This document shows positions 3,772 through 25,036 of a stretch of DNA of 42,496 nucleotides, one piece after another (position 1 is the stretch's first letter; every line of letters starts with the position of its first letter). The notes below the pieces were generated by a model that did no database searches, was not told the origin of the DNA, and saw nothing but the letters and a program-made list of their open reading frames with translations. Source of the stretch: Betaproteobacteria bacterium. GTDB lineage: Bacteria > Pseudomonadota > Gammaproteobacteria > Burkholderiales > WYBJ01. The position numbers were made by a program, and so were the translations under genes. The stretch covers positions 1 through 42,496 of the forward strand of contig WHTS01000049.1 in the NCBI GenBank assembly GCA_009377585.1. Direction: 5' to 3'.

Positions 3772-3777
3772 TAGAAT
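3772..3777 (+). promoter_or_regulatory. Candidate -10 element for amgK-murU
   Basis: TAGAAT lies 29 bases before the chosen amgK ATG, inside the divergent lptD/amgK gap. The same hexamer occurs ahead of dusB (8295) and the CadD-type gene (28976). No good -35 box is seen at 16-18 bases, so the call rests on the -10 hexamer and its position alone. Confidence 0.4.
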
Positions 3778-3806
3778 CGCCGCTCCGGGAAGGCAACGCA
3801 ATCGCG

Positions 3807-4799: not shown

Positions 4800-4806
4800 G
4801 CGCGCC

Positions 4807-8259: not shown

Positions 8260-8294
8260 GCACTGGCTCGCTTTTTCCGCGCGCCGAATGCGAT

Positions 8295-8300
8295 TAGAAT
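8295..8300 (+). promoter_or_regulatory. Candidate -10 element for dusB-fis
   Basis: TAGAAT lies 51 bases before the dusB GTG, in the 92-base gap after the ubiH-like gene. The -35 region at 17 bases spacing is T-rich but not a clear TTGACA. In enterobacteria the dusB-fis promoter is strongly growth-phase controlled; nothing here proves that for this organism. Confidence 0.35.
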
Positions 8301-8351
8301 GAGCGCCCTTTCCGTGCGTTCTCACACCCGGTATTCCCAGGCGCTTGCACA

Positions 8352-9365
8352 GTGCAGATCGGACCCTATTCCCTGCCCAACGCGCTATGCGTCGCGCCGA
8401 TGGCCGGCGTCACCGATCGAGCATTTCGAAAGCTGTGTAAGCGCTTCGGCGCGGGGCTCGCGGTGTCCGAGATGATCGCCTCCAATCCGCAGCTGCGGCT
8501 GAGCGTCAAGACGCAGCGGCGCATGGATCACGAAGGCGAAGTCGAGCCCATCGCAGTGCAGATCGCGGGCGGCGAGCCGGCGATGCTCGCCGACGCGGCT
8601 CGCTTCAATGTCGATGGCGGTGCGCAGATCATCGACATCAACATGGGCTGCCCGGCAAAGAAGGTATGCAATGTCGCGGCCGGCTCGGCGTTGCTGCGCG
8701 ACGAAGCGCTGGTCGGGCGCATCCTCGAGTCGGTGGTGGCCGCGGTGCCGGTTCCGGTGACGCTCAAGATACGCACCGGTTGGGACCGCGCCGACCGTAA
8801 CGCCGTACGCGTAGCGCGCGCCGCCGAGCAGGCAGGTATCCGCGCCATCGCCATTCACGGCCGTACGCGCGCCGACGCTTTTCTCGGCGCGGCGGAGTAC
8901 GACACCATCGCCGAGGTCAAGGCCCGAATCGGCATACCGGTGATCGTCAACGGCGATATCGATTCGCCGGAAAAAGCGGCTTGGGTGCTGGCAAAAACCG
9001 GCGCCGACGGCGTCATGATCGGGCGCGCGGCGCAAGGCCGTCCGTGGATTTTTCGCGACATCGCGCATTACCTCGAGCACGGCGTTCGCGCGGTTGCGCC
9101 TTCGCTGGACGAGATCCGCGCGGTGCTGCGCGTGCATCTTGCCGAGTTGCACGCGTTCTACGGCGAATTTTCCGGTCTGCGCGTCGCGCGCAAGCATGTA
9201 TCCTGGTACACGGGGAGTCTTGCCGGCGGCACCGCATTCCGCCACGCCTTCAACAAGCTGGAGAGCGCCCGCGCGCAGCTCGATCATCTCGATCGCTACT
9301 TCGATCGACTCGAGCGCGAGGCCTGTCCCTATGCGGACGACGCAAGAGAGGAGCTTGCGGCATGA
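8352..9365 (+). CDS. dusB: tRNA-dihydrouridine synthase B
   Basis: DusB reduces a D-loop uridine of tRNA to dihydrouridine using FMN and NADPH. The 337-residue protein is a TIM barrel with the Dus markers LCVAPMAGVTDRAFR at the N-terminus, the active-site loop INMGCPAKKVC (catalytic Cys), KIRTGW, AIHGRTRA, VNGDI and GADGVMIGRAAQGRPWIF for FMN phosphate. Translation begins at GTG 8352 (GTGCAGATCGGACCC), which places the start at the usual position two residues before IGPY. The stop overlaps the fis ATG by four bases (ATGA), the conserved dusB-fis arrangement, so the two are co-translated. Confidence 0.95.
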   Translation: MQIGPYSLPNALCVAPMAGVTDRAFRKLCKRFGAGLAVSEMIASNPQLRLSVKTQRRMDHEGEVEPIAVQIAGGEPAMLADAARFNVDGGAQIIDINMGCPAKKVCNVAAGSALLRDEALVGRILESVVAAVPVPVTLKIRTGWDRADRNAVRVARAAEQAGIRAIAIHGRTRADAFLGAAEYDTIAEVKARIGIPVIVNGDIDSPEKAAWVLAKTGADGVMIGRAAQGRPWIFRDIAHYLEHGVRAVAPSLDEIRAVLRVHLAELHAFYGEFSGLRVARKHVSWYTGSLAGGTAFRHAFNKLESARAQLDHLDRYFDRLEREACPYADDAREELAA

Positions 9366-9601
9366 AGACTGATACGGAGCTGGTGCGCTCGGTGCGCCGG
9401 GCAATCGACGGCTATTTTCGCGATCTGGATGGCGAACAGCCCTGCGGGGTGTACGAGATGGTGATCAGCTGCGTCGAGCGACCCTTGATCGAGGCGGTGC
9501 TCACGCGCGTGGACGGCAACCAGACGCATGCGGCGCAAATGCTCGGCATCAACCGCAACACGCTGCGAAAAAAGATGAAGTCGCACGGCATCAAGGGTTA
9601 G
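9362..9601 (+). CDS. fis: DNA-binding protein Fis
   Basis: Fis is a small nucleoid-associated protein that bends DNA and regulates rRNA and other growth-linked promoters. The 79-residue protein has the C-terminal Fis helix-turn-helix, NQTHAAQMLGINRNTLRKKM, ending in KSHGIKG. It is shorter at the N-terminus than the 98-residue E. coli protein, which is usual for betaproteobacteria. The start overlaps the dusB stop (ATGA). purH starts 9 bases downstream, so dusB-fis-purH may be one transcript. Confidence 0.93.
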   Translation: MKTDTELVRSVRRAIDGYFRDLDGEQPCGVYEMVISCVERPLIEAVLTRVDGNQTHAAQMLGINRNTLRKKMKSHGIKG

Positions 9602-9610
9602 CGGAAAGCG

Positions 9611-11173
9611 ATGACCACCGTCAAGCGCGCGCTCCTGAGCGTTTCGGACAAGACCGGGCTCATCGAGCTGGCGCGCGCGCTCACCCGTTACGGCGCCGAG
9701 CTGATCTCCACCGGCGGCACGGCGAAAAGCCTGCGCGAGGCGGGACTTGCCGTGACCGAGGTGGCCGACTACACCGGATTCCCGGAGATGCTCGACGGCC
9801 GGGTGAAGACGCTCCACCCCAAGGTGCATGGCGGCATCCTGGCCCGCCGCGACTCAGCGGCGCACATGCAGGCGATGAGCCAGCACGGTATTGCGCCGAT
9901 CGACCTCGTGGTCGTGAACCTCTATCCATTCGCGCGCACCGTGGCCAAGGCCGATGTGGCGCTCGACCAGGCCATCGAAAAAATCGACATCGGCGGCCCG
10001 GCCCTGGTTCGCAGCGCTGCCAAGAACTACCGCGATGTCGCTGTGATCACCGACCCTGCCGATTACGGCTTGGTCATGCAGGAGCTGGATGCCACCCACG
10101 GTGCGCTCGGCGTGGAGCTGCGCTTCGCGCTCGCCAAGAAGGCCTTCGCGCACACCGCCGCCTACGACGGCGCGATCGCAAACTGGCTGGGCGCCTTGGA
10201 CGAGAACGACCGGCCCGGCCTTTTCCCGCAGCAGCTCAACTTGAATTTCGAGCGCGTGCAGCCGTTGCGCTACGGCGAGAATCCGCACCAGAACGCGGCG
10301 TTCTATCGCGACCTGGCGGGGGCGCCGGGGCTGATCGCGGGCGCTACCCAGATCCAGGGCAAGGAGCTTTCTTACAACAACATCGCCGATGCCGACGCCG
10401 CGTGGGAGTGCGTCAAGAGCTTCGAGCAGCCCGCCTGCGTGATCGTCAAGCACGCCAATCCCTGCGGCGTGGCCGTTGCCGATTCGGTGGCGGGCGCGTA
10501 TCGCAACGCGTTCGCGACCGATCCGACGTCGGCATTCGGCGGCATCATCGCGATCAATCGGGCGCTGGACGCGGCCACGGCCGAAGCGCTCTCGTCGCAG
10601 TTCGTCGAAGTGCTGATTGCGCCGCAGATCCTGCCGCAAGCCGCGACTCTGCTCGCGCACAAGCCCAACATCCGGGTGCTGGAGATCGCGGGCGCAGGCG
10701 CGAACAATGCCTGGGACTTCAAACGCATCGGCGGCGGCCTGCTGGTGCAGAGCCCGGACGATGGCGCCATCCAGGCCTCCGACTTGCGCTGCGTGACCCG
10801 CCGTGCACCCGATCCGGCCGAGCTCGACGACCTGCTGTTCGCCTGGCGCGTGGCGAAGTTCGTGAAGTCGAACGCGATCGTCTATTGCGGCGCCGGGCGC
10901 ACGCTCGGCGTGGGCGCGGGGCAGATGAGCCGGGTCGATTCGGCACGCATCGCCGCGATGAAGGCCGCAAATGCGGGCCTGTCGCTTGCCGGTTCGGTGG
11001 TGGCCTCGGACGCATTCTTTCCGTTCCGCGACGGGATCGATGTCCTGGCCGCGGCGGGCGCGCGTGCTGTTGTGCAGCCGGGCGGTAGCCTGCGCGACCA
11101 GGAAGTGATCGCCGCCGCCGACGAGCACGGGATCGCGATGGTGTTCACTGGCGTGCGGCATTTCCGTCATTGA
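9611..11173 (+). CDS. purH: Bifunctional AICAR transformylase / IMP cyclohydrolase PurH
   Basis: PurH carries out the last two steps of IMP synthesis. The 520-residue protein has the N-terminal MGS-like cyclohydrolase domain (about residues 1-140; [33 protein letters not shown]) and the transformylase domain. The latter includes the [13 protein letters not shown] and [10 protein letters not shown] segments with the catalytic Lys-His, and [17 protein letters not shown] near the end. The ATG follows GGAAAG closely and 9 bases after fis. purD follows 63 bases later, keeping two purine genes together. Confidence 0.96.
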
Positions 11174-11236
11174 ATGCGATCGGGCAGAATGCTGCAGCAA
11201 CGGCGATAGTGGACTTGCGCAAGGTAATATGACTCG

Positions 11237-12520
11237 ATGAAGGTTCTGGTGGTCGGTTCCGGCGGAAGAGAGCACGCGCTGGCATGGAAGCTCGCGCAAT
11301 CGCCCCGCATCACCCGCACCTTCGTCGCGCCGGGCAATGCCGGCACGGCGGCCGAGCCCGGCTGCAGCAACGTCGAGATCACCGACATCCCGGAGCTGCT
11401 CGACTTCGCACGTAATGAGAAGATCGCCTTTACCGTGGTCGGACCGGAGGCGCCGCTTGCGGCCGGCATCGTCGATGCGTTTCGTGCGGCCGATCAGCGC
11501 ATTTTCGGCCCCTCGCAGGCAGCCGCCCAACTCGAAAGCTCCAAGACGTTCGCCAAGACCTTCATGCAGCGCCACGGCATTCCAGCTGCTGCCTATGCGA
11601 GCTTCGACGATGCGGCCGCGGCGCATCGGCACATCGACGAGCTCGGCACGGCGCTGGTGGTGAAGGCCGATGGGCTCGCCGCCGGCAAGGGGGTGGTGGT
11701 CGCCACCACCCCGGGCGAAGCGCATGCAGCGGTGGATGCGATGATGGTGAGCGGGGCGATGGGCGAGGCCGGGCGCCGGATCATCATCGAGGAGTTCATC
11801 CGCGGCGAGGAGGCAAGCTTCATCGCCATGGTCGACGGCAAGAACGTCATGGCGCTCGCGACCAGCCAGGATCACAAGCGCCTGCGCGACGGCGACGCGG
11901 GGCCCAATACCGGCGGTATGGGCGCATATTCTCCGGCGCCGGTCGTAACACCGCGCATGCATGCCCGCATCATGCGCGAGGTGATCGACCCGGTGGTCAA
12001 CGGCATGATCGCCGAGGGCACGCCTTATACCGGCTTTCTCTATGCCGGGCTGATGATCGACGGTGACCGGCTGAACGTGCTCGAATTCAACTGCCGCCTG
12101 GGCGATCCGGAAACCCAGCCCATCCTGTTGCGCCTGAAATCGGACCTGGTCGTCCTGTTTGAGGCGGCTTTTGCCGGCACGCTCGACAAGGTCGAGCCGC
12201 AATGGGACCGGCGGGTCGCGCTCGGCGTCGTGCTGGCCGCGCAGGGCTATCCCGAATCGCCGCGCAAAGGCGATATCATCGAGGGGTTGCCGCCGGACGA
12301 GGCGCCGGACCTGCACGTGTTCCACGCCGGCACCGCCCGGGAGGGCGAACGCGTGGTCACCCAGGGCGGGCGGGTGCTGTGCGTCACCGCACTCGGCGAC
12401 AACGTGCGGCTCGCGCAGCGCCGCGCCTACGAAGCGGCCGAACAGATCCGCTTCGAGGGCGTGCAGATGCGGCGCGATATTGGTTACAGGGCAGCAGGCG
12501 CAAACCGGCGCGGCAGCTAG
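11237..12520 (+). CDS. purD: Phosphoribosylamine-glycine ligase PurD
   Basis: PurD couples glycine to phosphoribosylamine with ATP in purine synthesis. The 427-residue protein starts with MKVLVVGSGGREHALAWKL, has the ATP-grasp domain (VVKADGLAAGKGVVV around residue 140; EEFIRGEEASF; GPNTGGMGAYSPAP), and the ligand-binding EFNCRLGDPETQ. Length is normal for the family. It is 63 bases after purH; AAGGTAAT upstream is a weak ribosome binding site. Confidence 0.96.
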   Translation: MKVLVVGSGGREHALAWKLAQSPRITRTFVAPGNAGTAAEPGCSNVEITDIPELLDFARNEKIAFTVVGPEAPLAAGIVDAFRAADQRIFGPSQAAAQLESSKTFAKTFMQRHGIPAAAYASFDDAAAAHRHIDELGTALVVKADGLAAGKGVVVATTPGEAHAAVDAMMVSGAMGEAGRRIIIEEFIRGEEASFIAMVDGKNVMALATSQDHKRLRDGDAGPNTGGMGAYSPAPVVTPRMHARIMREVIDPVVNGMIAEGTPYTGFLYAGLMIDGDRLNVLEFNCRLGDPETQPILLRLKSDLVVLFEAAFAGTLDKVEPQWDRRVALGVVLAAQGYPESPRKGDIIEGLPPDEAPDLHVFHAGTAREGERVVTQGGRVLCVTALGDNVRLAQRRAYEAAEQIRFEGVQMRRDIGYRAAGANRRGS

Positions 12521-12555
12521 CGGCCGCGGCGGTGCGCCAGCGTAATGCGGAGCAA

Positions 12556-12560
12556 GGAGG
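12556..12560 (+). promoter_or_regulatory. Ribosome binding site deciding the VOC gene start
   Basis: AAGGAGG ends at 12560. It abuts the ATG at 12561 with no spacer but lies 6 bases before the second in-frame ATG at 12567, so the second ATG is the workable start. Confidence 0.7.
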
Positions 12561-12566
12561 ATGGCA

Positions 12567-13433
12567 ATGGCGCAGCAATTCGATCGTTCGCAAGAAGATT
12601 CCGGCAACGCCGTTCAGCTCGAGCACCTCAATCTGCGCAATCCCGATCAACGCCTGGCCATGCTGTTCTACCTGGTCGGCATGGGATTCACGCGCGATCC
12701 CTATCTCATGGTCGGCCTCGACAACATGTGGATCAACATCGGTCGCAGCCAGATCCACACGCCGAACGGCGAGGCCCAGCGCCTCAACGGCACCATCGGT
12801 ATCGTCCTGCCGGATTTGAAGGCCTTGTGCGCCCGCTTGCAGGCCGTGGCGCCGCGGCTCGACGGCACCCAGTTTCGTTTCACCGACCGCTCGGACTTCG
12901 TCGAGGTGACCTGCCCCTGGGGCAACCGGCTGCGGGCGCACGCGCCCTCGCCCGAGCTCGGCGGCTTCGAGATCGGTATGCCGTACCTCGAATTCCTGGT
13001 GGCGCCCGGCACGGCCGAAGGCATTGCGCGCTTCTATTCGCAGGTCATCGGCGCCACGGCGCGCTGCGAGGAGACGCGCGGCTCGCGCGTGGCTGTGGTG
13101 CGGGTCGGGCGCGGCCAGCAACTGTTCTTCCGCGAGAGCAACGACAAGCTCCCGCCCTACGACGGGCACCACATCCAGCTCTACATCGTAGATTTCTCCG
13201 GACCGCATCGATTCTTGAACGAACGCGGCCTCATCACGCAGGAAAGCGACCAGTATCAGTACCGGTTCGTGGATATCGTCGATCCGGAGGACGGCCGCGA
13301 GCTGACCAAGCTGGAGCACGAGATCCGCTCGGTCACGCACCCGCTCTACGGGCGGCCGCTGGTGAACCGCAATCCCACCCAGACCAACCGGACCTACGCC
13401 AAGAACTGCGACGCCTTCGCTGGCGCGTTCTAG
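12567..13433 (+). CDS. Two-module VOC (glyoxalase/dioxygenase-fold) family protein, substrate unknown
   Basis: The protein (288 residues from 12567) reads as two vicinal-oxygen-chelate modules. The first runs from [10 protein letters not shown] through [13 protein letters not shown] (about residues 15-125). The second runs from [11 protein letters not shown] through [10 protein letters not shown] and ends [12 protein letters not shown] (about 135-245). EVTCPWGN resembles the strand-turn around the second-module Glu of glyoxalases. Candidate metal ligands are His in LEHLNL, Glu in VEVT and His in HHIQL, but the second module starts with Glu (LEF) where many members have His. No specific reaction can be assigned. 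It sits between purD and hemF, 16 bases before hemF, on the same strand, so it is probably co-transcribed with hemF. The start is set by the AAGGAGG spacing. Confidence 0.75.
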
Positions 13434-13449
13434 CCGCACGCGGCCGCTG

Positions 13450-14346
13450 TTGGATACCCGCGCGGTCCTCGATTTCTTGAGCGGGCTGCAGGCGGGCATC
13501 GTCGCGGAGCTTTCGCGCCTCGACGGCCGCGAGTTCCGCCGCGATGCCTGGGAGCGCCCGCAGGGCGGAGGCGGCACGAGCTGCGTACTGGAAGACGGCG
13601 CCCTGTTCGAGCGCGGCGGCGTCAACTTCTCCCACGTTCGAGGCGACGGCTTGCCGCCTTCCGCTACCGCGGCTCGGCCCGAGCTCGCCGGCCGTGGCTT
13701 CGAAGCGATGGGCGTCTCGGCTGTGCTGCATCCGCGCAATCCCTATGTGCCCACGGTGCACATGAACGTGCGCTTCTTCGTCGCGACGCGGGCCGATGCC
13801 GATCCGGTGTGGTGGTTCGGGGGCGGCATGGATCTCACCCCCTACTACGGGTTCGAGGATGACGCGCGGCATTTCCATGGCGCCTGCCGCGCTGCCATCG
13901 CGCCGTTCGGGATGCAGTACTACGGGCGCTTCAAGCGCTGGTGCGACGAGTATTTCTTTCTGCGCCATCGCAACGAGCCGCGCGGCGTGGGCGGGCTTTT
14001 CTTCGACGACTTCAACGCGCCCGACTTCGAAACCTGCTTTGGGCTCACGCGCTCGGTAGGCGAGCATTTCCTGCCGGCTTACGTTCCGATCGTCGAGCGG
14101 CGGCGCGACACCACCTACGGCGAGCGCGAGCGTGCCTTCCAGGCCTACCGGCGCGGTCGCTACGTCGAGTTCAACCTCGTCTACGACCGCGGCACGCTGT
14201 TCGGGCTGCAGTCGGGCGGGCGCACCGAATCGATCCTCATGTCGCTGCCGCCCGTGGTGCATTGGCGCTACGACTGGAAGCCGGAACCGGGATCGCCCGA
14301 GGAAGCGCTGTATACGGAATTCCTTCCGCCGCGGGATTGGGTTTAA
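13450..14346 (+). CDS. hemF: Oxygen-dependent coproporphyrinogen III oxidase HemF
   Basis: HemF oxidatively decarboxylates coproporphyrinogen III to protoporphyrinogen IX in haem synthesis. The 298-residue protein carries the family segments [55 protein letters not shown] and [20 protein letters not shown]. Translation appears to begin at TTG 13450, which gives a normal N-terminus ([13 protein letters not shown]) without a long extension. Earlier codons in this frame do not resemble the family. The stop is followed at once by repeat-rich DNA. Presence of HemF indicates a lifestyle with oxygen. Confidence 0.94.
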
Positions 14347-15093: not shown

Positions 15094-15182
15094 GCTCCCG
15101 ATTTCTCGGGAGCGACGGTCGCTTGGAGCCCGATTTCTCGGGAGCGACGGTCGCTTGGAGCCCGATTTCTCGGGAGCGACGG
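15094..15182. repeat. R3 hairpin, three tandem 32-bp copies
   Basis: The core CCCGATTTCTCGGGAGCGAC recurs with a 32-base period (CGATTT at 15099, 15131 and 15163). Each copy forms a GCTCCCGA/TCGGGAGC-type stem, slightly weaker in copies two and three. The last copy abuts the stop codon of the convergent kinase gene at 15183. It could serve as a shared transcript end, but no T-run is present. Confidence 0.85.
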
Positions 15183-17108
15183 TTATTCAGCGTTCGAACG
15201 CAGCAGAAAACTGCGAAGCCGCTTGATCCGATCGAGCAGCGCGCGGCCGAGATTGGACGCGCGCAGCTTGTCCGCGCCGCTCACCTGGTGCTGTTTCACC
15301 AGCTCCGGCGCCTGCTTGAACGCGTTGTAGCGCCCGAGCGCCGCCTGCGTGTGGCCCTTGAGCAGCTTGTAGTTCACGGGCTTGTTGAGGAAGCGGAAGA
15401 TCTGCGCCTGGTTGATGAGATCGATGACCAGCTCCGAGTCGGACGCATCGGTGAGCACGATCGACAGGATCTCGGGGTGTTCCTGCTTGAGCAGCTTGAA
15501 GGCCGCCGTATCGTCCGGCTGGGCCGCGCCGATATCGGCGATGATCACCGCCACCGCGCGCGATTGCATGATCGTGAACGCCTCGGCAAGCGAGGCCACA
15601 TGCTCCACGTGGTAGGCATCGCCGAAAAGCTCGTTGATCGCCCGCCGGTAGCTCGATCCCGGGTCGACCACGAGGATCGCCTCGTCCATCTTTTCCGGCG
15701 GCGAACCCGCGCTCACCGTGGTATCGGCGAGCTCGATGCCGATTGCAACCGCCTCGGCCAGGACCGCCTGGATGTCCTGGTTGTTCCACGGCTTGTTGAT
15801 GAAGCGGTAGACCTCGCCCTCGTTGATCGAGCCCACGATCGAGGCGAGATCGGAATACCCGGTGAGGAGAATGCGCACGGTGGTGGGCGAAAGCTCCTTC
15901 GCCCGGCGCAGCAGCTCCACCCCCGGCATGCCCGGCATGCGCTGGTCGCTCACGATCAGGTGCACGCGAAAGCGTTTGAGGAACTCGAACGCCTGGTCGC
16001 CGCTGGTGGCGGTAAAGACGTGGTAGGTATTGCGGAAGATCGACTTGAGCGCGTTGAGAATGCGCTCCTCGTCATCGACGAACAGCACGCGCGCCTTGGG
16101 TGCATCCGCCGCCTGTGCGGGCTCGCCTGCGGAGGCGGCCGATGCCGCTTCGCTGAAGTCGAGCGAGTCTCCGCTGGGAAGCCGGATGTTGCGCGCCATT
16201 TTCAGCATGTCGGCGGCGATCGCGGGCTGCGGCGATTCCACCGTGGTCGGCGCCGATTGGCGCGTGGCCGCACCGCGCAGGCAGTCCTCGACCGCGAGCC
16301 GGAAGTCGTCGGCGAATTCGCGCGCGTTCTGGTAGCGGTCCTCGACCTTCTTGGCCAACGCCTTCTGCACCACGTAGTCCATCTGCCCGCTCAGGTGCAG
16401 GTTGAACTCGGACGGATTGCGCGCCGTCGCATCGAGCACTTCGCGCATCACGCTCGCATTGCTGCCCTTGCCGGGGAACGGCCGCCGGCCCGTGAGCAGC
16501 TCGTAGCCGATGACGCCGGCCGAGAAGATGTCGGTGCGCGCGTCGGTATCTTCGCCCATGCACTGCTCGGGCGACATGTAGAAGGGGGTACCTACCACCA
16601 GGCCGTATTGCGTGAGCGCGGACGATTCGATGCGGGCGATGCCGAAATCGCTCACCTTGATCTCGCCGCCCGAGCCGATGAGGATGTTGGAGGGCTTGAT
16701 GTCCCGGTGCGTGACGCCCTGAGCGTGCGAGTATTCGAGCGCGTCGAGCAGCGGCAGGATCACCTCGCGTATCTTCTCCAGCGAAGGCTGCGGCTCGCGC
16801 AGGAGCAGCTCGTGCACGCTGTCGCCGCGCACCAGCTCCATGGCGATGAAGGCGCTCTTGTCGTCCTCGCCGTATTCGAAGATCGTGACGATGCGCGGAT
16901 GGAACAACCCGCCCGCGGCCTGCGCTTCGTACTTGAAGCGCGTGAGCACGATGTCGCGCTCGTTGTCGTCGAGCAGCGCCTTCTCGATCACCTTGAGCGC
17001 GACCGCACGCTGGATTTCCGGATCGCGCCCCTGGTAGACCACGCTCATGCCGCCGCGGCCGATGATGCGCTCGATCGTGTATTTGCCGATCTTTTCCGGT
17101 AGGGTCAT
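15183..17108 (-). CDS. Ser/Thr protein kinase fused to two receiver domains
   Basis: The 641-residue protein combines a Hanks-type kinase (residues 8-275) with two response-regulator receiver domains. Kinase features: glycine loop GRGGMSVVYQG (17-27), Lys39, HRDIKPSN with catalytic Asp136, DFG 154-156, and GTPFYMSPEQ. A linker (about 280-338) has no clear domain. Receiver 1 (339-455) is complete: Asp345-Asp346, phosphoacceptor Asp388 in VSDQRMPG, Thr416 and Lys439. Receiver 2 (477-595) is degenerate: only one acidic residue in the first pocket (VDP, Asp482), Asp525 as possible acceptor, Lys576. No transmembrane helix is seen. It follows the histidine kinase by 15 bases, so the likely input is phosphotransfer from that kinase to receiver 1. 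Its Ser/Thr substrates are unknown. Confidence 0.92.
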   Translation of the reverse strand: MTLPEKIGKYTIERIIGRGGMSVVYQGRDPEIQRAVALKVIEKALLDDNERDIVLTRFKYEAQAAGGLFHPRIVTIFEYGEDDKSAFIAMELVRGDSVHELLLREPQPSLEKIREVILPLLDALEYSHAQGVTHRDIKPSNILIGSGGEIKVSDFGIARIESSALTQYGLVVGTPFYMSPEQCMGEDTDARTDIFSAGVIGYELLTGRRPFPGKGSNASVMREVLDATARNPSEFNLHLSGQMDYVVQKALAKKVEDRYQNAREFADDFRLAVEDCLRGAATRQSAPTTVESPQPAIAADMLKMARNIRLPSGDSLDFSEAASAASAGEPAQAADAPKARVLFVDDEERILNALKSIFRNTYHVFTATSGDQAFEFLKRFRVHLIVSDQRMPGMPGVELLRRAKELSPTTVRILLTGYSDLASIVGSINEGEVYRFINKPWNNQDIQAVLAEAVAIGIELADTTVSAGSPPEKMDEAILVVDPGSSYRRAINELFGDAYHVEHVASLAEAFTIMQSRAVAVIIADIGAAQPDDTAAFKLLKQEHPEILSIVLTDASDSELVIDLINQAQIFRFLNKPVNYKLLKGHTQAALGRYNAFKQAPELVKQHQVSGADKLRASNLGRALLDRIKRLRSFLLRSNAE

Positions 17109-17123
17109 GGCGCGCGCCTGGAC

Positions 17124-18932
17124 CTAGACGACGGCGACGGTGTCGTCGGGTGGGTGCACCGGCAGGCGCACGATGAAGCGGGTGCCGGCGCCGGCCTTGG
17201 AATCGACCGAGATGCGACCGCCGTGCGCTTCCACGATCTTGTACGCGATCGAAAGGCCGAGGCCCGTTCCCTTGCCCACCTCCTTGGTGGTGAAGAAGGG
17301 GTCGAAGATCTTCGGCAGCGCGTCGGCCGGTATGCCCTTGCCGTTGTCGGCGACCTCGATCTCGACGTGGCCGGGGTCGGGCGCGCGCGTGGTGAGGCGG
17401 ATCTCGCCGTCGGCGCGGCCCTCGGTCGCTTGCGCTGCATTGGTGATGAGATTGAGAAACACCTGGTTCAATTGCGACGGCGAGCAGGTGATGGCCGGCA
17501 CGGGGTTGTACTGCTTCTTCACGTCGATCGATTTCAGCATGTGCTTGGCGATCGAGAGCGTGCTCTCCAGGCCGTCGGCGACATTGTAGCGGTCGACCTT
17601 CTTGCGATCGAGGCGAGAAAAGTTGCGTAAATTGCCCACTATTTCGGCGATTTGAGTGATGCCGTACTGGCCGTCCTGCACCAGCTTGGCGACATCCTCC
17701 GGTGCGCCGTGGCCCTTGAGGCGGGTGATCGCCGAATTAACCAGGGCGAACTGCCGGCCGAAGGTCTGCTCGTCCGCGCCTTCCCTGAGCATGCGCAGCA
17801 GCTTCTCGGTCTCGGTCAGCGCCTCCGACATGCCCGAGATTTGCCCCTCGACGGTCTCGAGGCTGTTCTTGACGTAGGCGAGCGGGGTGTTGATCTCGTG
17901 CGCGACGCCCGCGACCATCTGTCCGAGCGAGGACATCTTCTCCGACTGCACCAGCATCGACTGCGATTCTTCCAGGCTCTTCAGCGCTTGCGAGAGCTCC
18001 TGCGTGCGCTCGGCGACGCGGCGTTCCAGGCCTTCGTTCGCTTCCTTCAGTGCGGCGTTGGCCGCGGCGATGTCGAGGTAGCTTTGGCGCAGCTGCGCGC
18101 CGATGTGCGAGAGCAGAATCAACAGCACGCCCGCATAGGTGATGAGCGCGGTGCGGAAGAGCTCCTTTTCCTGCACCGAAGCCTCGAGCTCGCGATGGAA
18201 GGCGCTGGTGAGCGTATCGAGCCGCGGGCCGGCCGTGATGTACTGGAGCCGGTTGTACAGCTCCTGCTCCGCGAGCTTCGCCTTGTAGAACTGGTCGACG
18301 GTCGCCAGAAACTTCTCCAGCAAGGGGCCGAGCGTGGGGCTGGCGGGCAATTCCGCCTGGCGCAGTGCCGCGAGCCTGGCCTCCAGGCGGCCGATCTGGG
18401 TGGCGTCGGGAGCGAGATTGAAGCGCAGGACTTCGGCCTGCACCGCGCCGAGGCTTTGCTCGAACGCGGTGATGCGATCACGCTGGCGCGGATTGGAAAG
18501 CAGCGCCTGGCGCAGCGACTTGTTGATGTCGGGTGCCGTGACCAGCGCAGTGTCGAGCCGCTGGCGCGCCTCGGCGGCCGTGATGCGGTACTTCTCCATC
18601 AACGCGGCCTTGTCGTTGAACGCGCGCTTGAGCTCGGGGAAGCTGTAGGACACCATCCGGCTCACCGAGGATTCGTCTTCGATCCCCTGCAGTGCGCGGC
18701 GAAGACGCTCGGCGGCGTGTGCGGCCGCCAATGGTGTGCTGGCCGAGTCGTTTTGCAGGCGCAGGAGCTCCGATTCCCAGCGCGTGTCGATGTCCTTGAG
18801 CTCGCGCAGGTGCGAGGCGATCTGCACCTGGCGGCGAAACTCGCCGATGTCGGTCTTGTAGTAGAGAAAGGCGAGCCCCGCGACCAGCACCACGGCCAGT
18901 ACTGTGATCGCCGCCATTTTTGCGGAATTCAA
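17124..18932 (-). CDS. Membrane sensor histidine kinase
   Basis: The predicted 602-residue sensor kinase has a first membrane helix at residues 7-24, a periplasmic helical region (about 30-258), a second helix (about 260-278), a coiled-coil linker (about 280-330), the HisKA phosphoacceptor His345 in VAGVAHEINTPLAY, and the ATPase domain with NLITNAAQA (N box), DNGKGIP and GTGLGLS. The start was set at TTG 18932 because GGGGGAGG ends 4 bases before it and the product then begins just before the membrane helix. An in-frame ATG at 19061 would add 43 low-complexity residues without family likeness. It probably phosphorylates the receiver domain of the kinase encoded 15 bases downstream; no DNA-binding partner is adjacent. 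Confidence 0.9.
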   Translation of the reverse strand: MNSAKMAAITVLAVVLVAGLAFLYYKTDIGEFRRQVQIASHLRELKDIDTRWESELLRLQNDSASTPLAAAHAAERLRRALQGIEDESSVSRMVSYSFPELKRAFNDKAALMEKYRITAAEARQRLDTALVTAPDINKSLRQALLSNPRQRDRITAFEQSLGAVQAEVLRFNLAPDATQIGRLEARLAALRQAELPASPTLGPLLEKFLATVDQFYKAKLAEQELYNRLQYITAGPRLDTLTSAFHRELEASVQEKELFRTALITYAGVLLILLSHIGAQLRQSYLDIAAANAALKEANEGLERRVAERTQELSQALKSLEESQSMLVQSEKMSSLGQMVAGVAHEINTPLAYVKNSLETVEGQISGMSEALTETEKLLRMLREGADEQTFGRQFALVNSAITRLKGHGAPEDVAKLVQDGQYGITQIAEIVGNLRNFSRLDRKKVDRYNVADGLESTLSIAKHMLKSIDVKKQYNPVPAITCSPSQLNQVFLNLITNAAQATEGRADGEIRLTTRAPDPGHVEIEVADNGKGIPADALPKIFDPFFTTKEVGKGTGLGLSIAYKIVEAHGGRISVDSKAGAGTRFIVRLPVHPPDDTVAVV

Positions 18933-19364: not shown

Positions 19365-20093
19365 TCATGGCGTCTCTCCCAGGTAGGCGCGGCGAACCGC
19401 ATCGTTGCCGAGAAGCGCGGGGGCGGTGTCATGCAAAGTGACGGCGCCGCTTTCGAGCACATAGCCCGAATCGCACGCCTGCAGGGCAAGACGCGCATTC
19501 TGCTCGACCACCAGGATGGTGACGCCCTGGCGCGCGATCTCGGCCACGATCTCGAAGATGCGCGCGACCACGAGCGGGGCGAGTCCCATGCTGGGCTCAT
19601 CGAGCAGCAGCAGCCGCGGCCGGCTCATGAGCGCGCGTGCGATCGCAAGCATCTGCTGTTCGCCGCCGGAGAGCGTGCCGGCGCTCTGGCCGCGGCGCTC
19701 GCGCAGGCGCGGGAAACGCTCGAACACCTGCGCCAGATCGGCCGCGACCGCTTTCCTGTCGATGCGCACGTAAGCGCCCATGGCGAGGTTCTCGTCCACA
19801 CTCAACTGGGGAAATACGCCGCGGCCTTCGGGCACCAGGGCCAAACCCCGTCGCACCAGCTCGAACGCACGCATGCCCCCGACCGGCCCGCCGTCCAGCA
19901 GCACCGATTCGCGCGCGACCGGCAGCAGTCCCGCGATCGCCTTCAGGGTCGAAGTCTTGCCGGCGCCGTTGGCACCGATGAGGCATACCATCTCGCCTGC
20001 GCCGATCGTGAGGTCGATGCCCTTGACGGCCTGGATGCCGCCATAGGCCACGCGCAGGCCGCGTACCTCCAGCAGCGGCCGCGCCTCGCTCAT
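19365..20093 (-). CDS. livF: Branched-chain amino acid ABC transporter ATPase LivF
   Basis: LivF is one of the two cytoplasmic ATPases that drive high-affinity branched-chain amino acid import. The 242-residue protein has Walker A GANGAGKTS, the LivF-type VPEGRGVFPQLSV segment, the ABC signature LSGGEQQ and Walker B LLLLDEPSMGLAP, with EQNARLAL as switch region. It is the last gene of livKHMGF, but is separated from livG by 337 bases of tandem repeats, whereas the two genes are usually adjacent. The ATG lies at the edge of the repeat block, so its translation signal is partly repeat-derived. Confidence 0.93.
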   Translation of the reverse strand: MSEARPLLEVRGLRVAYGGIQAVKGIDLTIGAGEMVCLIGANGAGKTSTLKAIAGLLPVARESVLLDGGPVGGMRAFELVRRGLALVPEGRGVFPQLSVDENLAMGAYVRIDRKAVAADLAQVFERFPRLRERRGQSAGTLSGGEQQMLAIARALMSRPRLLLLDEPSMGLAPLVVARIFEIVAEIARQGVTILVVEQNARLALQACDSGYVLESGAVTLHDTAPALLGNDAVRRAYLGETP

Positions 20094-20432
20094 GCGGTCG
20101 CCTCCGAACGGTCAACGAGTTGCGAAGGCCAAGCCTCTAGCGACTTGGCGGCAGTTCGCTTTGCGGTCCATCCCCGCAAGCAAGCACCTCCGAACCGGTC
20201 GATGTAAATGAACCGCCAAGCCGTCGGTGCCCGGCGCCATTCGCTTTGCGGTCGATCCCCACTGCGTGGGGCGACCTCCGAACCGTAGCGGCAGATCAAT
20301 CGCCAGGCCGTCGGTGGCCGGCGTTGCTCGCTTTGCGGTCGATCCCCGCAAGCGGGGCCCCTCGCCCGGGAAGCTCGCAACGACCCCCCTCGCCCGGGAA
20401 GCTCATGTCGCCGCCCCTCGCCCGGGAAGCTC
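20094..20432. repeat. Two tandem repeat arrays between livG and livF
   Basis: First array: an approximately 86-bp unit with TTCGCTTTGCGGTC at 20155, 20240 and (one mismatch) 20328, each followed by ATCCCC and, in the first two, CACCTCCGAACC or GACCTCCGAACC. Spacings are 85 and 87-88 bases, and the units have diverged by many substitutions. Second array: CCTCGCCCGGGAAGCTC three times, near 20360, 20389 and 20417, about 29 bases apart; the last overlaps the livG stop. No gene is supported here. Confidence 0.85.
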
Positions 20433-21201
20433 ATGCCACCGGAGCGCCGAGGTAGGCGGCTACGACCGCGGGATCGTGCTGGACCTGGCGCGGCGGTCCC
20501 TCGGCGATGCGGCGGCCGAAATCGAGCACCAGCACGCGGTCGCACAATCCCATCACCAGGCGCATGTCGTGCTCGATCAGGAATAGCGTCACGGCGTCGG
20601 CTCGGATGCGCTCGAGAAGTTTCGCCAGCGCCTGCGTTTCGGTCGCATTCATGCCGGCAGCCGGCTCGTCCAGCGCGAGCAGCCGCGGCTCGGTCGCGAG
20701 AGCACGGGCGATCTCCAGGCGGCGCTGGTCCCCGTAGGAAAGATTGCGTGCGAGCACGTTCGCGCGCGCGGCGATGCCGACATACTCGAGCAGCTGAGCC
20801 GCGCGTGCTTCGATCGCCACTTCTTCGGCGCGTTGCGAGCGAGTGCGAAAGATCGCCGCCGCCACACCCGCGCGTGTGCGCGCATGGCGCCCGATCATCA
20901 CGTTCTCCAGCGCGGACAGATTGGCGAACAGGCGAATGTTCTGGAACGTGCGTGCGATGCCGAGCGCTGCGATGGCATTGGGCTTGAGCCCAGTGAGCGG
21001 GCGGCCTTCGAGCGTCATGCGGCCGCTATCGGGGGCGATGAAGCCCGTGATGAGGTTGAAAAGCGTCGTCTTGCCGGCGCCGTTGGGTCCGATCAGCCCG
21101 TAGATCTCGCCGGCGTCGATGGCGAAGCTCACGTCGGTCAGCGCCTGCACGCCGCCGAAATGCTTGCCGACGTGCTCCACCTGCAGCAGCGGCGCGTTCA
21201 T
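20431..21201 (-). CDS. livG: Branched-chain amino acid ABC transporter ATPase LivG
   Basis: LivG is the second ATPase of the LIV importer. The 256-residue protein has Walker A GPNGAGKTT, FQNIRLFANLSALENVMIG (a LivG marker), the signature LSYGDQRR, Walker B LLALDEPAAGMNATE and the switch LIEHDMRLVMGLCDRVLVLDFG. The start ATG overlaps the livM stop by four bases (ATGA), so livM and livG are translationally coupled. Its stop codon lies in the third copy of the CCCGGGAAGCTC repeat, so the last residue or two (VA) may be repeat-derived. Confidence 0.94.
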   Translation of the reverse strand: MNAPLLQVEHVGKHFGGVQALTDVSFAIDAGEIYGLIGPNGAGKTTLFNLITGFIAPDSGRMTLEGRPLTGLKPNAIAALGIARTFQNIRLFANLSALENVMIGRHARTRAGVAAAIFRTRSQRAEEVAIEARAAQLLEYVGIAARANVLARNLSYGDQRRLEIARALATEPRLLALDEPAAGMNATETQALAKLLERIRADAVTLFLIEHDMRLVMGLCDRVLVLDFGRRIAEGPPRQVQHDPAVVAAYLGAPVA

Positions 21202-22271
21202 TGTTGCTCCGTGCGGCGGGCGAGCTCGCGCCGGCGCACCGCCGAGGGAAAGAGTCCCGCGGGCCGGTACATCATCATGACCACCAGCGCCAGCCCGAAC
21301 AGCAGCATGCGCACCACCTCGGGCTCGACGATCGAGCGGCCGAAGAGCGCCTGCTGCACGGGCCCCACGGTATGGCGCAGAAGCTCCGGCACGAACGAGA
21401 GCAGCAGCGCGCCGACGACGACGCCCCAGATGTTCCCCATCCCGCCCAGCACCACCATGGAAAGCACCATGATCGATTCGACCAGGACGAAACTCTCCGG
21501 GCTGATGAAGCCCTGCATGGCGGAGAAGATGCTGCCGGCGATGCCGCCGAACGAGGCGCCCATGGCGAAGGCGAGGAGCTTCATGCGCATGGTGTCGATG
21601 CCCATGGCGCGCGCCGCGGTTTCGTCCTCGCGAATCGCTTCCCATGCGCGCCCGATGCGCGAGTGCTGGAGGCGCACGTTGACCACCAGCACCAGCATCA
21701 GCACGACGATCAGCAGGTAGTAGTACTTGATCGGACCGCTGAAGGTCAGCCCGCCGATCGTGTCGGTCGAGCCAAGATTCAAGTTGCCGATGCGGATCGG
21801 ATCGATGCGCGAGATGCCTTGCGGGCCGTTGGTGATGTTGACCGGCTGCGACAGATTGTTGAGAAAGATGCGGACGATCTCGCCGAAACCGAGCGTAACG
21901 ATGGCGAGATAGTCGCCGCGCAGTTTCAGCGTCGGCGCGCCGAGCAGCACGCCGAAGATGCAGGCCACCAGCGCGCCCAGCGGGACGATGGCCCAGAACG
22001 GCCAGTGGATGTCGAATTGCGGCGAGGCGAGGAGCGCATAAACGTAAGCGCCGACGGCGTAGAACGCGATGTAGCCGAGATCGAGCAGACCGGCGAACCC
22101 GACCACGATGTTGAGACCCAGCGAGAGCAGGATGAACAGGATCGCCAGGTTGGTGACGCGCACCCAGGTGGTGCCGACCGAAGCCAGCACGAACGGCAAC
22201 GCTGCGAGCGCGATGACGATCAGCGCGATGCCGGGCCACGTGGCCGGGGAGCGGCGGTGAGCCTCAGCCAT
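21198..22271 (-). CDS. livM: Branched-chain amino acid ABC transporter permease LivM
   Basis: LivM is an inner-membrane permease of the LIV importer. The 357-residue protein has about nine or ten hydrophobic helices and the family segments LGLNIVVGFAGLLDLGYIAFYAVGAY, GDYLAIVTLGFGEI, REDETAARAMGID (ATPase contact loop) and GGMGNIWG. The start at 22271 (MAEAHRRSP) was chosen because the longer in-frame ATG at 22373 would add 34 residues that are simply translated R2 repeat (SVIPVKTGIQ). Upstream lie two R2 copies; downstream the gene overlaps livG. Confidence 0.92.
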   Translation of the reverse strand: MAEAHRRSPATWPGIALIVIALAALPFVLASVGTTWVRVTNLAILFILLSLGLNIVVGFAGLLDLGYIAFYAVGAYVYALLASPQFDIHWPFWAIVPLGALVACIFGVLLGAPTLKLRGDYLAIVTLGFGEIVRIFLNNLSQPVNITNGPQGISRIDPIRIGNLNLGSTDTIGGLTFSGPIKYYYLLIVVLMLVLVVNVRLQHSRIGRAWEAIREDETAARAMGIDTMRMKLLAFAMGASFGGIAGSIFSAMQGFISPESFVLVESIMVLSMVVLGGMGNIWGVVVGALLLSFVPELLRHTVGPVQQALFGRSIVEPEVVRMLLFGLALVVMMMYRPAGLFPSAVRRRELARRTEQQ

Positions 22272-22338
22272 TCGTGAAGCACCTAAGCGCAGCGTCATTC
22301 CCGCGTAGGCGAGCCAGGCCAATCGGCAAGAATCCTGG

Positions 22339-22391
22339 ATTCCCGTTTTCACGGGAATGACGGAGCTGGTCATTCCCGCGCAGGCGGGAAT
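22339..22391. repeat. Two R2 (dRS3-like) repeats in the livH-livM gap
   Basis: ATTCCC GTTTTCAC GGGAAT at 22339-22358 and ATTCCC GCGCAGGC GGGAAT at 22372-22391, 13 bases apart. A half copy (CGTCATTCCCGCGTAGGCGA) lies near 22292. Spacer bases differ between copies while the six-base arms are constant. Confidence 0.85.
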
Positions 22392-22459
22392 CCAGAAGAA
22401 TCGACTCTGGACACCCGTTTTCGCGGAGGTGATGGCTCGCAGTTACTGTACGCATGCGA

Positions 22460-23389
22460 TCAAACCCTGTCCCCGACGCGCTCGCCGAGCAAGCCGGAAG
22501 GACGAAACACCAGCACCAGGATCAGCACGATGAAGGCGAACACGTCCTGGTAGTTGCTGCCGAACCAGTTGTTGGTGAAATCCCCGATGTAGCCTGCGCC
22601 AAGCGCCTCGACCAGGCCGAGCAGGATCCCGCCCAGCATCGCGCCCGGGATGTTGCCGATGCCGCCGAGCACCGCCGCGCAGAACGCCTTGAGCCCCAGC
22701 AGCGAGCCCATCGTGTAATGCGCGATGCCGTAATAGGTGCCGACCATGACGCCGGCGATGGCGGCAAGCGTTGCGCCGATGACGAAGGTGGCCGCGATGA
22801 TGCGATCGATGTCGATACCCATCAGACCCGCGATCTGCGGATTCTGCGAGGTCGCCCGCATCGCGATGCCGAGGCGCGTGCGGTACACCATCAGCGTCAG
22901 CGCGCCCATCATGAGCGTGGCGACGATCCAGATCGCGAGCTGCACCGACGTGACCGTGGCGCCGGCGAAGTGGAACACGCGGTTGTCGAGGATCTGTGGG
23001 AACGCGAGCGGATTGCGGCTCCAGATCATGAGCCCGATCTGCTGCAGGATGATCGAGATGCCGATCGCGGTGATGAGGGGCGCGAGCCGCGGCGCGCCGC
23101 GCAAGGGGCGATACGCCACGCGCTCCATCGTGTACGAGACCGCCATGCAGACCGGAATGGCGGCGGCCGCACCGGCGAATACGATCGACCATGCAGGCAG
23201 GCCGGTCTCGGCTCCGGCCAGCGCACCGATCACCGAGAACGACACCATGGCGCCGATCATCACCACTTCACCATGGGCGAAGTTGATGAGCTGGATGATG
23301 CCGTAGACCATGGTGTAGCCGAGCGCCACCATGGCGTAGACGGTGCCCAGCGTGAGCCCGTTGATCAGTTGCTGGATGAAGGTTTCCAC
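22460..23389 (-). CDS. livH: Branched-chain amino acid ABC transporter permease LivH
   Basis: LivH is the partner permease of LivM. The 309-residue protein starts FIQQLINGLTLGTVYAMVAL, the usual LivH N-terminus, and contains GYTMVYGIIQLINFAHGE, RMRATSQNPQIAGLMGID-like contact loop and GGIGNIPGAMLGG. GTG 23389 was chosen because it gives the family-normal start; an in-frame ATG at 23443 would add 18 residues from R4 repeat DNA. It is separated from livM by 188 bases containing R2 copies and from livK by an R4 block and a terminator. Confidence 0.9.
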   Translation of the reverse strand: METFIQQLINGLTLGTVYAMVALGYTMVYGIIQLINFAHGEVVMIGAMVSFSVIGALAGAETGLPAWSIVFAGAAAAIPVCMAVSYTMERVAYRPLRGAPRLAPLITAIGISIILQQIGLMIWSRNPLAFPQILDNRVFHFAGATVTSVQLAIWIVATLMMGALTLMVYRTRLGIAMRATSQNPQIAGLMGIDIDRIIAATFVIGATLAAIAGVMVGTYYGIAHYTMGSLLGLKAFCAAVLGGIGNIPGAMLGGILLGLVEALGAGYIGDFTNNWFGSNYQDVFAFIVLILVLVFRPSGLLGERVGDRV

Positions 23390-23400
23390 GCGCGATACCT

Positions 23401-23560
23401 GGAAGGAAACCACACCACCCCGCCCGCATTCGCGAGATACCACACCACCCCGCTCGCTGGCGCGGGCACCGCTCCTCGTGAGAGGAGCGGATGTCTTTCA
23501 TTCCCCTCCTGACAAGGAGGGGCGGGACGCGACAGAGTCGCGGACGGGGTGGTCTGCAGA
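23401..23560. repeat. R4 repeat block between livK and livH
   Basis: Contains two ACCACACCACCCCGC motifs, a GCTCCTC/GAGGAGC hairpin (about 23471-23488), and a full R4 unit: CCCCTCCT/AGGAGGGG at 23503-23522, CGCGAC/GTCGCG at 23528-23542 and the GGACGGGGTGGT tail. Confidence 0.8.
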
Positions 23561-23629
23561 TCGCAGCCGAACCGATAACGCCTCGGCAACGACCGGCCTT
23601 GCGAAATACTTCGTGATGGCGAGTGCGCG

Positions 23630-23667
23630 CGCGCAAAACGCAAAAGGGCACCGCGAAGGTGCCCTTT
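23630..23667 (-). terminator. Intrinsic terminator after livK
   Basis: A perfect 10-bp stem (AAAGGGCACC 23643-23652, GGTGCCCTTT 23658-23667) with a 5-base loop; on the minus strand it is followed by TTTTGCGTTTT. It begins 28 bases after the livK stop. It may act as an attenuator, giving more LivK than the membrane subunits, as expected for a binding protein. Confidence 0.8.
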
Positions 23668-23695
23668 CGTGCCGGTGCGCATCGCGGACCGGCGC

Positions 23696-25036
23696 CTACT
23701 TGGCGACCGCGTCCTTGGCGGGCTCGGGCGCATTGTCGGTCGCCGCCGGTGCGGGCGCGCCCGCGGGGCTGGCAGGGGCGGAAGCCGCTTTCGCTTCGGC
23801 CTCGGCCTGCGCCTTCATGAACGCATCGAACTCGATCGGCTTTCCGCCCTTCACGATCGCGACCGGCTCGATCTTGGCGCCCTTCATCGTGAAGATCGTG
23901 ATCTCGGCGTCCTTGCGATCGCCCTTCTCGTCGAACCGAATCGTGCCGCTCGCGCCCTTGTGCTCGATGCTCGCGAGCGCCGGCAGGTATTTCGCGGGAT
24001 CGGCCGAATCGGCCTTCTGCATGGCGGCGATCAGGAGGTTGGTCGCATCGTAAGTGAACGGCGCGTACAGGATCGGATCCATATTGAACTTCTTCTTGTA
24101 CGCATCCAGGAACGCCTTCGAGGCGGCCTGCACCGGAATGCCGGCCTGCGAGCAGATCATGCCCTCCGCGTTCTTCTCGCCAGCAAGCTCGGCCATCTTG
24201 TCGGTGCAGCCGCCGTCGCCGAACGCGAACACCGCCTTGATGCCCAGCTCGCGGCCTTGCTTGAGCAGCGCGCCGCCGGTGGCATCCATGCCGCCGTAGA
24301 ACACGGCGTCGGGAGTGCGGGCGCGCAGCTTGGTGAGAATCGCCTTCCAGTCGCGCGTGTCCTTGTTGCCGCGCTCGCGAGGAAGAACCTCGACGCCCGC
24401 CGCCTTCAGCGTCTTTTCGACTTCGTTGGCCAGGCCCTCGCCATACGCGGTCGCATCGTCGATCACCGCCACCGTCTTGAGCTTGAACTGCGACATGAGA
24501 TAGCTCGCGATCGCCGGGCCCTGCTGATCGTCGCGGCCGACGATGCGGAAGATCTCCTTGAAGCCTTGCTCGGTGAGCCTCGGATTGGTCGCCGATCCGC
24601 TCACCATGGGAATGGCGGCCTGGTGGTAGACCGCGGAGGCCGGAATCGTGACGCCCGAATTCAGGTGACCGACCACGCCCGCCACCTTCGCATCGGCGAA
24701 CTTCTGCGCGACGATCGGCCCGCGATCGGGCTTCTCTTCGTCGTCTTCCGCGAGCAGCTCGAACTTCACCTTCGCGCCGCCGATGGTGATGCCTTTGGCG
24801 TTGGCCTGGTCGATCGCGAGCCGCGCGCCGTTCTCGTTGTCCTTGCCCAGGTGCGCGATGCCGCCAGTGAGCGGCGCCGCGTGTCCGATGCGAACCGTAA
24901 TTTCCTTGGGCGCCGGCGCCGCCGCCGGGGCATCGCCTTTCGCCTCGGTTTGCGGTTCGTCCCGGCCGCAGGCCCCGAGTGCGGCGGCGATGGCGAATGC
25001 GAAGATGGTCGATGCGAGCTGCCGGCGTGAAGTCAT
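23696..25036 (-). CDS. livK: Branched-chain amino acid ABC transporter substrate-binding lipoprotein
   Basis: This is the periplasmic receptor of the LIV importer. The 446-residue protein has a lipoprotein signal with lipobox LGAC (Cys23), a short Ala/Pro-rich linker, and a type I periplasmic binding fold beginning ITVRIGHAAPLTGGIAHLGKDNENGARLA. It includes GVVGHLNSGVTIPASAVY and GYGEGLANE-like AYGEGLANEVEKTLKAAG. An unusual Ala/Pro-rich tail of about 45 residues (from AQAEAEAKAASAPAS) extends the C-terminus. It heads livKHMGF, followed by a terminator and repeats. Ligand specificity (Leu, Ile, Val or another amide) cannot be fixed from sequence. The second residue pair after the Cys (GR) argues against an inner-membrane retention Asp at +2. 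Confidence 0.9.
   Translation of the reverse strand: MTSRRQLASTIFAFAIAAALGACGRDEPQTEAKGDAPAAAPAPKEITVRIGHAAPLTGGIAHLGKDNENGARLAIDQANAKGITIGGAKVKFELLAEDDEEKPDRGPIVAQKFADAKVAGVVGHLNSGVTIPASAVYHQAAIPMVSGSATNPRLTEQGFKEIFRIVGRDDQQGPAIASYLMSQFKLKTVAVIDDATAYGEGLANEVEKTLKAAGVEVLPRERGNKDTRDWKAILTKLRARTPDAVFYGGMDATGGALLKQGRELGIKAVFAFGDGGCTDKMAELAGEKNAEGMICSQAGIPVQAASKAFLDAYKKKFNMDPILYAPFTYDATNLLIAAMQKADSADPAKYLPALASIEHKGASGTIRFDEKGDRKDAEITIFTMKGAKIEPVAIVKGGKPIEFDAFMKAQAEAEAKAASAPASPAGAPAPAATDNAPEPAKDAVAK

Follow-up and report, generated by a model that had tools for sequence, protein, structure and literature searches.

A 42,496-nucleotide stretch of contig WHTS01000049.1 from a Betaproteobacteria bacterium (assembly GCA_009377585.1; the whole stretch is hereafter called the window) carries two adjacent genes, one encoding a sensor histidine kinase (HK) and the other a protein, STK-REC-REC, in which an N-terminal Hanks-type Ser/Thr kinase (STK) is joined to two receivers, REC1 and REC2 (table 1). 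We consider it probable that the pair constitutes a two-component system with a Ser/Thr kinase output, in which the HK would phosphorylate Asp388 of REC1, the two receivers would rearrange or dimerize in the manner of PleD, and the tethered kinase would be switched on by proximity. Because the pair is kept in relatives, catalytic residues are kept in both proteins and the trees of the two genes run in parallel, a pathway from HK to REC1 to Ser/Thr kinase is the natural reading of the locus.

The domain composition agrees with what had been proposed from inspection of this DNA (the original prediction). The HK stop codon and the ATG of the STK-REC-REC gene are 15 bases apart, as had been stated there, and the description of a complete Hanks kinase and a canonical receiver within one protein is borne out by Pfam matches to Pkinase (residues 10-260, 1e-49) and Response_reg (in two stretches, best 341-450) and by the five pocket residues of REC1. 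An output other than transcription fits the lack of a DNA-binding domain among Pfam matches up to E 0.1; a GGDEF domain was likewise not found among matches of the STK-REC-REC protein up to that value. The HK comprises DAHL (residues 32-260), HisKA (336-387, holding His345) and HATPase_c (485-593) domains, with two hydrophobic stretches, seen by eye only, on either side of DAHL as putative membrane segments. Its start is uncertain: TTG at 18932 is plausible, an ATG lies a few codons further on, and the listed open reading frame (ORF) begins at 19118.

Conservation and History of the Gene Pair

A search with REC2 gave matches in 121 of the 399 genomes from the order (E 1e-8), many being weak. 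Loci were fetched around the stronger hits and supplemented with the best 80 loci from a scan of genome contigs with a 24-row profile. After exclusion of loci with REC1 or REC2 scores under the cut-offs, and of L127, L129, L132, L134, L135, and L136 as repeats of genomes already included, the comparison set comprised 139 REC1-REC2 rows, 72 with the kinase (window included) and 67 without. Rows within one family-level group are not independent, and a single group, f12, contributes 19 of the 72.

Of the 72 kinase-bearing rows, 69 have an HK gene upstream in the same orientation. Two of the others (L096 and L109) are at a contig edge, and in the third (L106), where the gene is missing its first part, there is none in the 6.5 kb upstream. 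The same arrangement is present in 61 of the 67 kinase-less rows, and the gap between the HK and receiver genes falls within -60 to +60 bases in most measured cases (60/68 kinase-bearing, 54/61 kinase-less). The coupling of the two genes put forward in the original prediction is thus upheld by a conserved neighborhood in relatives, and frequent separation was not seen. Distances in the HK and REC-REC trees are correlated over 130 pairs (r 0.81, shuffled maximum 0.14) and within the 69 kinase pairs (r 0.72, largest of 300 shuffles 0.12), a correlation to which shared descent contributes. HK-receiver cross-talk exists in general, and the two genes could be chance neighbors, with the HK serving other regulators and another kinase driving STK-REC-REC; the adjacency in kinase-bearing rows, the parallel trees, and the upstream HK of the kinase-less relatives make this extremely improbable.

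All 23 HKs scanned, out of the 69 paired with kinase-bearing rows, have HisKA and HATPase_c, and 20 of them have DAHL. Among the HKs of kinase-less pairs (32 scanned out of 61), 12 have DAHL and 11 have CBS, suggesting that the same kind of REC-REC regulator is served by different sensors. Our literature search, of partial coverage, found no paper with the term “DAHL domain.”

Kinase-less HK/REC-REC pairs are found in Pseudomonas, Azotobacter, Comamonas testosteroni, Thiothrix, Moraxellaceae, Alcanivorax, Solimonas, Rhizobium, Chlorobi, and Bacteroidota. The kinase-bearing named records among the best 80 loci are Betaproteobacteria, except for one titled “uncultured proteobacterium.” Of 369 genomes of the class, 41 match the REC-REC profile at E 1e-45 (seven candidates scored per genome); among 30 near-full-length matches the kinase was found in the window only, 28 of the frames being too short (304-467 amino acids, aa), and a 769-aa REC-REC frame of genome G167 has no kinase within it. 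A full-protein search of 274 genomes of the class also returned only the window, which, with just four candidates scored per genome, is no evidence of absence.

Two changes in the kinase label are required on a quick REC-REC tree, one of them forced by the starred branches. In the REC-REC tree the 72 kinase rows and one kinase-less row from Thiothrix (L141) fall on one side of a branch with a Shimodaira-Hasegawa-like approximate likelihood ratio (SH-aLRT) support of 100, and the HK tree contains the identical split with support 91. A topology holding the 72 kinase rows together scores higher and is not rejected by the approximately unbiased test (p-AU 0.72), which is no proof of a clade; L141 is among the long end branches, and its placement is unsure. 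This Thiothrix pair, with a DAHL-type HK and no kinase, could predate the fusion or have lost the kinase. A single fusion event, on a betaproteobacterial branch, seems to have joined a PknB-like kinase to the N-terminus of a more ancient REC-REC regulator that already had an HK partner.

A downstream gene was assigned by the neighbor rule in 51 of the 67 kinase-less rows, and the 43 scanned gave no common output (TonB_C in 4/35, YHS in 3/35; TPR in 3 of 8 more, with the rest all different). Separate STK genes lie near kinase-less pairs in 3 of 24 fetched loci (L207, L214, and L215), a small set of loci, and among the earlier kinase-less loci only by L151, on the opposite strand. At L207 (genome G167, positions 643-5263) an HK and a kinase-less REC-REC gene have immediately after them a separate ORF of 744 aa with an STK at its C-terminus, possibly an unfused version of STK-REC-REC.

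The occurrence of HK/REC-REC pairs without a kinase in many taxa would also be expected if the kinase were an input, phosphorylating Ser/Thr residues of the receivers or the HK and so tuning a REC-REC unit that actually works through protein binding. Documented cases of Ser/Thr kinases modifying response regulators appear in two papers (PMC12189002; PMC12471899). However, such tuning requires no fusion, and the separate kinase gene of L207, just after REC-REC, equally fits a kinase downstream of the receivers; we regard the kinase as input as quite improbable.

The Ser/Thr Kinase Domain

The closest fold to the kinase domain is that of PknB (40% identity, Z 35.0, root-mean-square deviation [rmsd] 1.5 over 258 residues). 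In an alignment of 67 kinase domains, two of them incomplete (L109 and L106), catalytic K39 is kept in 65/65 and D136 and D154 each in 65/66 of the domains reaching the site. Conserved catalytic residues together with the PknB fold mark the domain as a Hanks-type Ser/Thr kinase, with activity predicted on that basis. The single exception at D136 and D154 is L123 (genome G570), in which both HRD and DFG are lost; it is probably a pseudokinase that has been kept alongside its HK.

In alignment with PknB, T166 falls on the first Thr of the activation-loop TQT, which we take to be T171, an autophosphorylation site. R135 and T166 are jointly present in 56 of 66 kinase domains and jointly missing in 10 (nine f12 copies and L123), the pattern expected of a phosphoregulated RD kinase in which T166 is phosphorylated and read by R135. 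Since the nine copies all belong to f12, their loss of the two residues would reflect one or few events. Eight f12 loci (L038, L094, L095, L097, L103, L104, L107, and L108) hold two HK/STK-REC-REC pairs in tandem; the copy on the side of the liv genes (see below) is non-RD (HQD in place of HRD) and has also lost the activation-loop Thr, and the copy on the hemF side keeps both the Arg and the Thr.

The Receivers

The five pocket residues of REC1 are all kept in 72/72 kinase-bearing rows, and its phospho-acceptor, Asp388, is invariant in 24 aligned sequences. REC2 has Asp482, Asp525 (the Asp57 equivalent), Thr553, and Lys576, with the second metal-binding acid replaced by Pro483. The original prediction had called REC2 degenerate, with a single acidic pocket residue: it does lack a metal ligand at Pro483 but is less degenerate than described, both Asp482 and Asp525 being present. 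Pseudo-receivers have been defined as receivers in which one or more of the five pocket residues are missing; of these residues, DD2 binds metal directly, and D, T, and K are each retained in ∼65% of pseudo-receivers (sections of PMC12632262). By this definition and from its residues, REC2 is a pseudo-receiver and not an aspartate-less receiver.

Across the 72 kinase-bearing rows, the REC2 acceptor is Asp in 72, the T/S position is kept in 71, and the Lys position is K in 65 and R in 7; DD1 is acidic in 63 and DD2 in 9, and 8 rows are fully canonical. Asp525 is among eight REC2 columns identical in all 72. At the acceptor position, the 67 kinase-less rows have D in 32, E in 27, N in 6, and S in 2. 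Because Asp525, Thr/Ser553, and Lys/Arg576 are held in the kinase clade, the metal ligand is lost, and the acceptor is non-Asp in 35/67 kinase-less rows, REC2 might instead be a second aspartate switch rather than a dead adaptor. Acting slowly and with weak dependence on metal, such a switch could be a phosphate sink, a timer, or an AND gate that sets the on-time of the kinase; taken with the liv link, it would let the system turn the status of amino-acid import into timed Ser/Thr phosphorylation. We think this rather unlikely.

Proposed Mechanism

A full-protein AlphaFold2 model was built from a 24-row alignment (mean predicted local distance difference test [pLDDT] 79.8, predicted template modeling score [pTM] 0.49) and a model of the REC-REC unit from a 53-row alignment (mean pLDDT 87.8, pTM 0.73). 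REC2 has a complete receiver fold in these models, with Asp525 at the end of beta3. In the full model, residues 156-171 (activation loop), 285-335 (linker), and 464-467 have pLDDT <50. Because a VIA search with the full-length model brought up kinases, the receivers were folded and searched separately. A Foldseek search of the PDB with the REC-REC model returned PleD chains at all of ranks 1-10 (E 2e-14 to 1e-11). PleD is active as a dimer in which receiver D1 contacts adaptor D2 (part of PMC8999164). Among the helices of each receiver, alpha4 varies least within the kinase clade (mean entropy 0.32 for REC1 and 0.90 for REC2); beta5 of REC2 also averages 0.90, and its alpha1 and alpha2 2.3. 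The suggestion in the original prediction that REC2 serves as a dimer or docking surface is therefore supported indirectly: PleD as top Foldseek match and the conservation of alpha4 and beta5 in REC2 speak for it, and the unconserved alpha5 speaks against it.

We propose that the HK, in the membrane, would sense a signal through its DAHL domain and autophosphorylate on His345, and that, as the conserved residues and gene pairing suggest, the phosphoryl group would pass to Asp388 of REC1. Much as in PleD, phospho-REC1 would then repack against REC2, either within its chain or from a partner chain, and this rearrangement would bring two flexibly tethered kinase domains together, which would trans-phosphorylate Thr166 in the activation loop and then Ser/Thr substrates. 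In lineages in which the pair lies behind livKHMGF, the signal could plausibly be the ligand or activity of the importer, the weakest step of the scheme. Since the kinase-REC1 linker is of low model confidence and ranges from 45 to 138 aa over the 72 kinase-bearing rows, proximity is favored over rigid coupling or allostery.

The receivers might alternatively act by release of autoinhibition, unphosphorylated REC1-REC2 docking on and blocking the kinase and phosphorylation of Asp388 freeing it as a monomer. Receivers commonly inhibit their effectors when unphosphorylated, and alpha4 of REC1 is far more constrained in the kinase clade than in kinase-less rows (entropy 0.32 vs 1.56), as if a partner had been gained with the kinase. 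However, the variable, low-confidence linker and the lack of a confident kinase-receiver arrangement in the full model do not favor a docked state, and on the trees the REC-REC duplication is older than the fusion and so was not built to inhibit a kinase. We consider release of autoinhibition possible but not likely.

Several observations weigh against activation by PleD-like receiver rearrangement and kinase proximity. The activation loop is modeled with low confidence, and a pTM of 0.49 means that the full model gives no confident packing of kinase and receivers. The Foldseek and VIA matches to PleD have an rmsd of ∼6-8; in VIA-align PleD ranks eighth (Z 20.1 over 257 residues, rmsd 6.8) and single receivers score slightly above it (best Z 21.4), and from the high rmsd and this ranking the agreement with PleD lies in domain order and fold, less so in orientation. 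Conservation is poor in alpha5 (entropy 1.65 in REC1 and 1.90 in REC2), which usually contributes to the dimer face, and all entropy means pool buried and exposed residues. The invariance of Asp525 would be unneeded by a purely adaptor REC2. The wide spread of kinase-less pairs means that REC-REC must have another output there, L123 keeps its pair despite the loss of HRD and DFG, and the nine f12 copies do without R135 and T166. Lastly, as the pair occurs without liv genes in several groups, the proposed liv signal cannot be general.

Gene Neighborhood

Table 1. Features of the STK-REC-REC/HK locus in window coordinates
Feature	Position	Strand	Remarks
STK-REC1-REC2 ORF	15183..17108	(-)	ATG start, 641 aa, stop included
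Hanks-type (PknB-like) Ser/Thr kinase domain, residues 1-273	16290..17108	(-)	K39, HRD D136, DFG D154, activation-loop T166
Kinase-REC1 linker, residues 274-337	16098..16289	(-)	Low model confidence, variable length
REC1, canonical receiver, residues 338-458	15735..16097	(-)	D345, D346, D388, T416, K439
REC2, pseudo-receiver, residues 467-600	15309..15710	(-)	D482, P483, D525, T553, K576
Sensor histidine kinase (HK), 602 aa from TTG 18932	17124..18932	(-)	Pfam DAHL, HisKA, HATPase_c
livF, livG, livM, livH, livK (branched-chain amino-acid-type ATP-binding cassette [ABC] importer)	19365..25036	(-), upstream of HK	Best NCBIfam matches, all under curated equivalog cut-offs
purH, purD, hemF (one further ORF between purD and hemF)	9611..14346	(+), convergent with pair	Conserved flank

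Among the 62 kinase-bearing rows with enough upstream sequence, 36 carry same-strand liv genes upstream; one of these (L085) is weak (33% identity), leaving 35 clear cases in five family-level groups, f1 (window included), f217, f12, f22, and f30. On the other side of the pair hemF and purD are present in 28 of the 35, L039 has them beyond liv, and six rows have none; the flanks shared by the 28 look like an inherited block. Of 30 kinase-less rows, many with only ∼2 kb upstream, one meets the liv rule, weakly (26% identity). The possibility that the link is a mere product of numerous liv operons was ruled out by counting liv-type permeases (PF02653) in eight genomes. There are 40, 44, and 53 matches in G012, G005, and G031, where the pair has no liv neighbors; G014, G032, and G321 have four each, two of which adjoin the pair; and G000 (8 matches) and G024 (19) also show the link. 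For some lineages the liv link hints at the signal, but it does not hold generally.

In group f29, 10 of 11 rows have a gene resembling the major facilitator superfamily upstream and a CcoI-like copper ATPase downstream (named by sight), and in loci such as L040, L105, and L111 a ccoN-like oxidase gene, also identified by sight, lies further on past the ATPase. In this group the pair is possibly linked to cbb3 oxidase assembly. Several groups have neither the liv nor the f29 flank. At L084 another Ser/Thr kinase (8207-9490), bearing a cyclic-nucleotide-binding domain, lies immediately upstream of the HK.

A 32-bp tandem repeat of 2.7 identical copies (window 15097-15183) ends on the STK-REC-REC stop codon; its 23-base core has four copies genome-wide, all at this locus, the fourth at 14489. 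Small palindromic repeats of the form CATTCCCGCG...GCGGGAATCC occur at window positions 14373, 14531, 15031, 22371, 32536, and 41693 (+) and 22337 (-), far over chance (10 matches with <=3 mismatches vs 0.01 expected). Two of them overlap the called livM start, and the true start is probably further in. A 136-bp tandem repeat of 2.9 copies (99% matches) lies at window 27866-28255.

Relation to Known Systems

Like PleD of Caulobacter (REC-REC-GGDEF), STK-REC-REC has tandem receivers; the output of PleD is a C-terminal GGDEF domain, whereas here it would be an N-terminal Ser/Thr kinase on a flexible linker. The second receiver of PleD has a reduced pocket, whereas REC2 retains its phospho-acceptor Asp. 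The kinase-less HK/REC-REC pairs share an identical gene order and a homologous HK core and REC-REC, but have no kinase domain, differ in HK sensors, and keep the REC2 acceptor Asp in only 32/67 rows. PknB-type Hanks kinases have a homologous kinase domain with an aligned activation-loop Thr; in these, control comes from PASTA (which PknB carries) or membrane sensors, in contrast to the receivers that would control the kinase here. Response regulators with Ser/Thr kinase or phosphatase outputs are reportedly listed as a class in Galperin's reviews.

In two further systems a receiver controls Ser/Thr phosphorylation and not transcription: PA3346 of P. aeruginosa, a REC-PP2C receiver-phosphatase stimulated by an HK (PMC12189002), and a predicted REC-PP2C-STYK protein of Campylobacterota (PMC9239204). 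PA3346 is a phosphatase with one N-terminal receiver, whereas the protein described here has an N-terminal kinase, two receivers, and an adjacent HK. A Ser/Thr kinase as response-regulator output is already known; the conserved STK-REC-REC design looks new, and the same literature search found no paper on the STK-REC-REC/HK pair.

His-Asp and Ser/Thr phosphorylation in bacteria are generally treated as distinct systems connected through cross-talk. In this conserved pair they appear to be wired in series. The family also offers a possible evolutionary intermediate, the Thiothrix kinase-less HK/REC-REC with a DAHL sensor, and natural variants in the non-RD duplicates and one pseudokinase. The system opens three questions: how receivers may control a Hanks kinase, what role a pseudo-receiver that keeps its Asp may have, and whether an ABC importer may feed the sensor.

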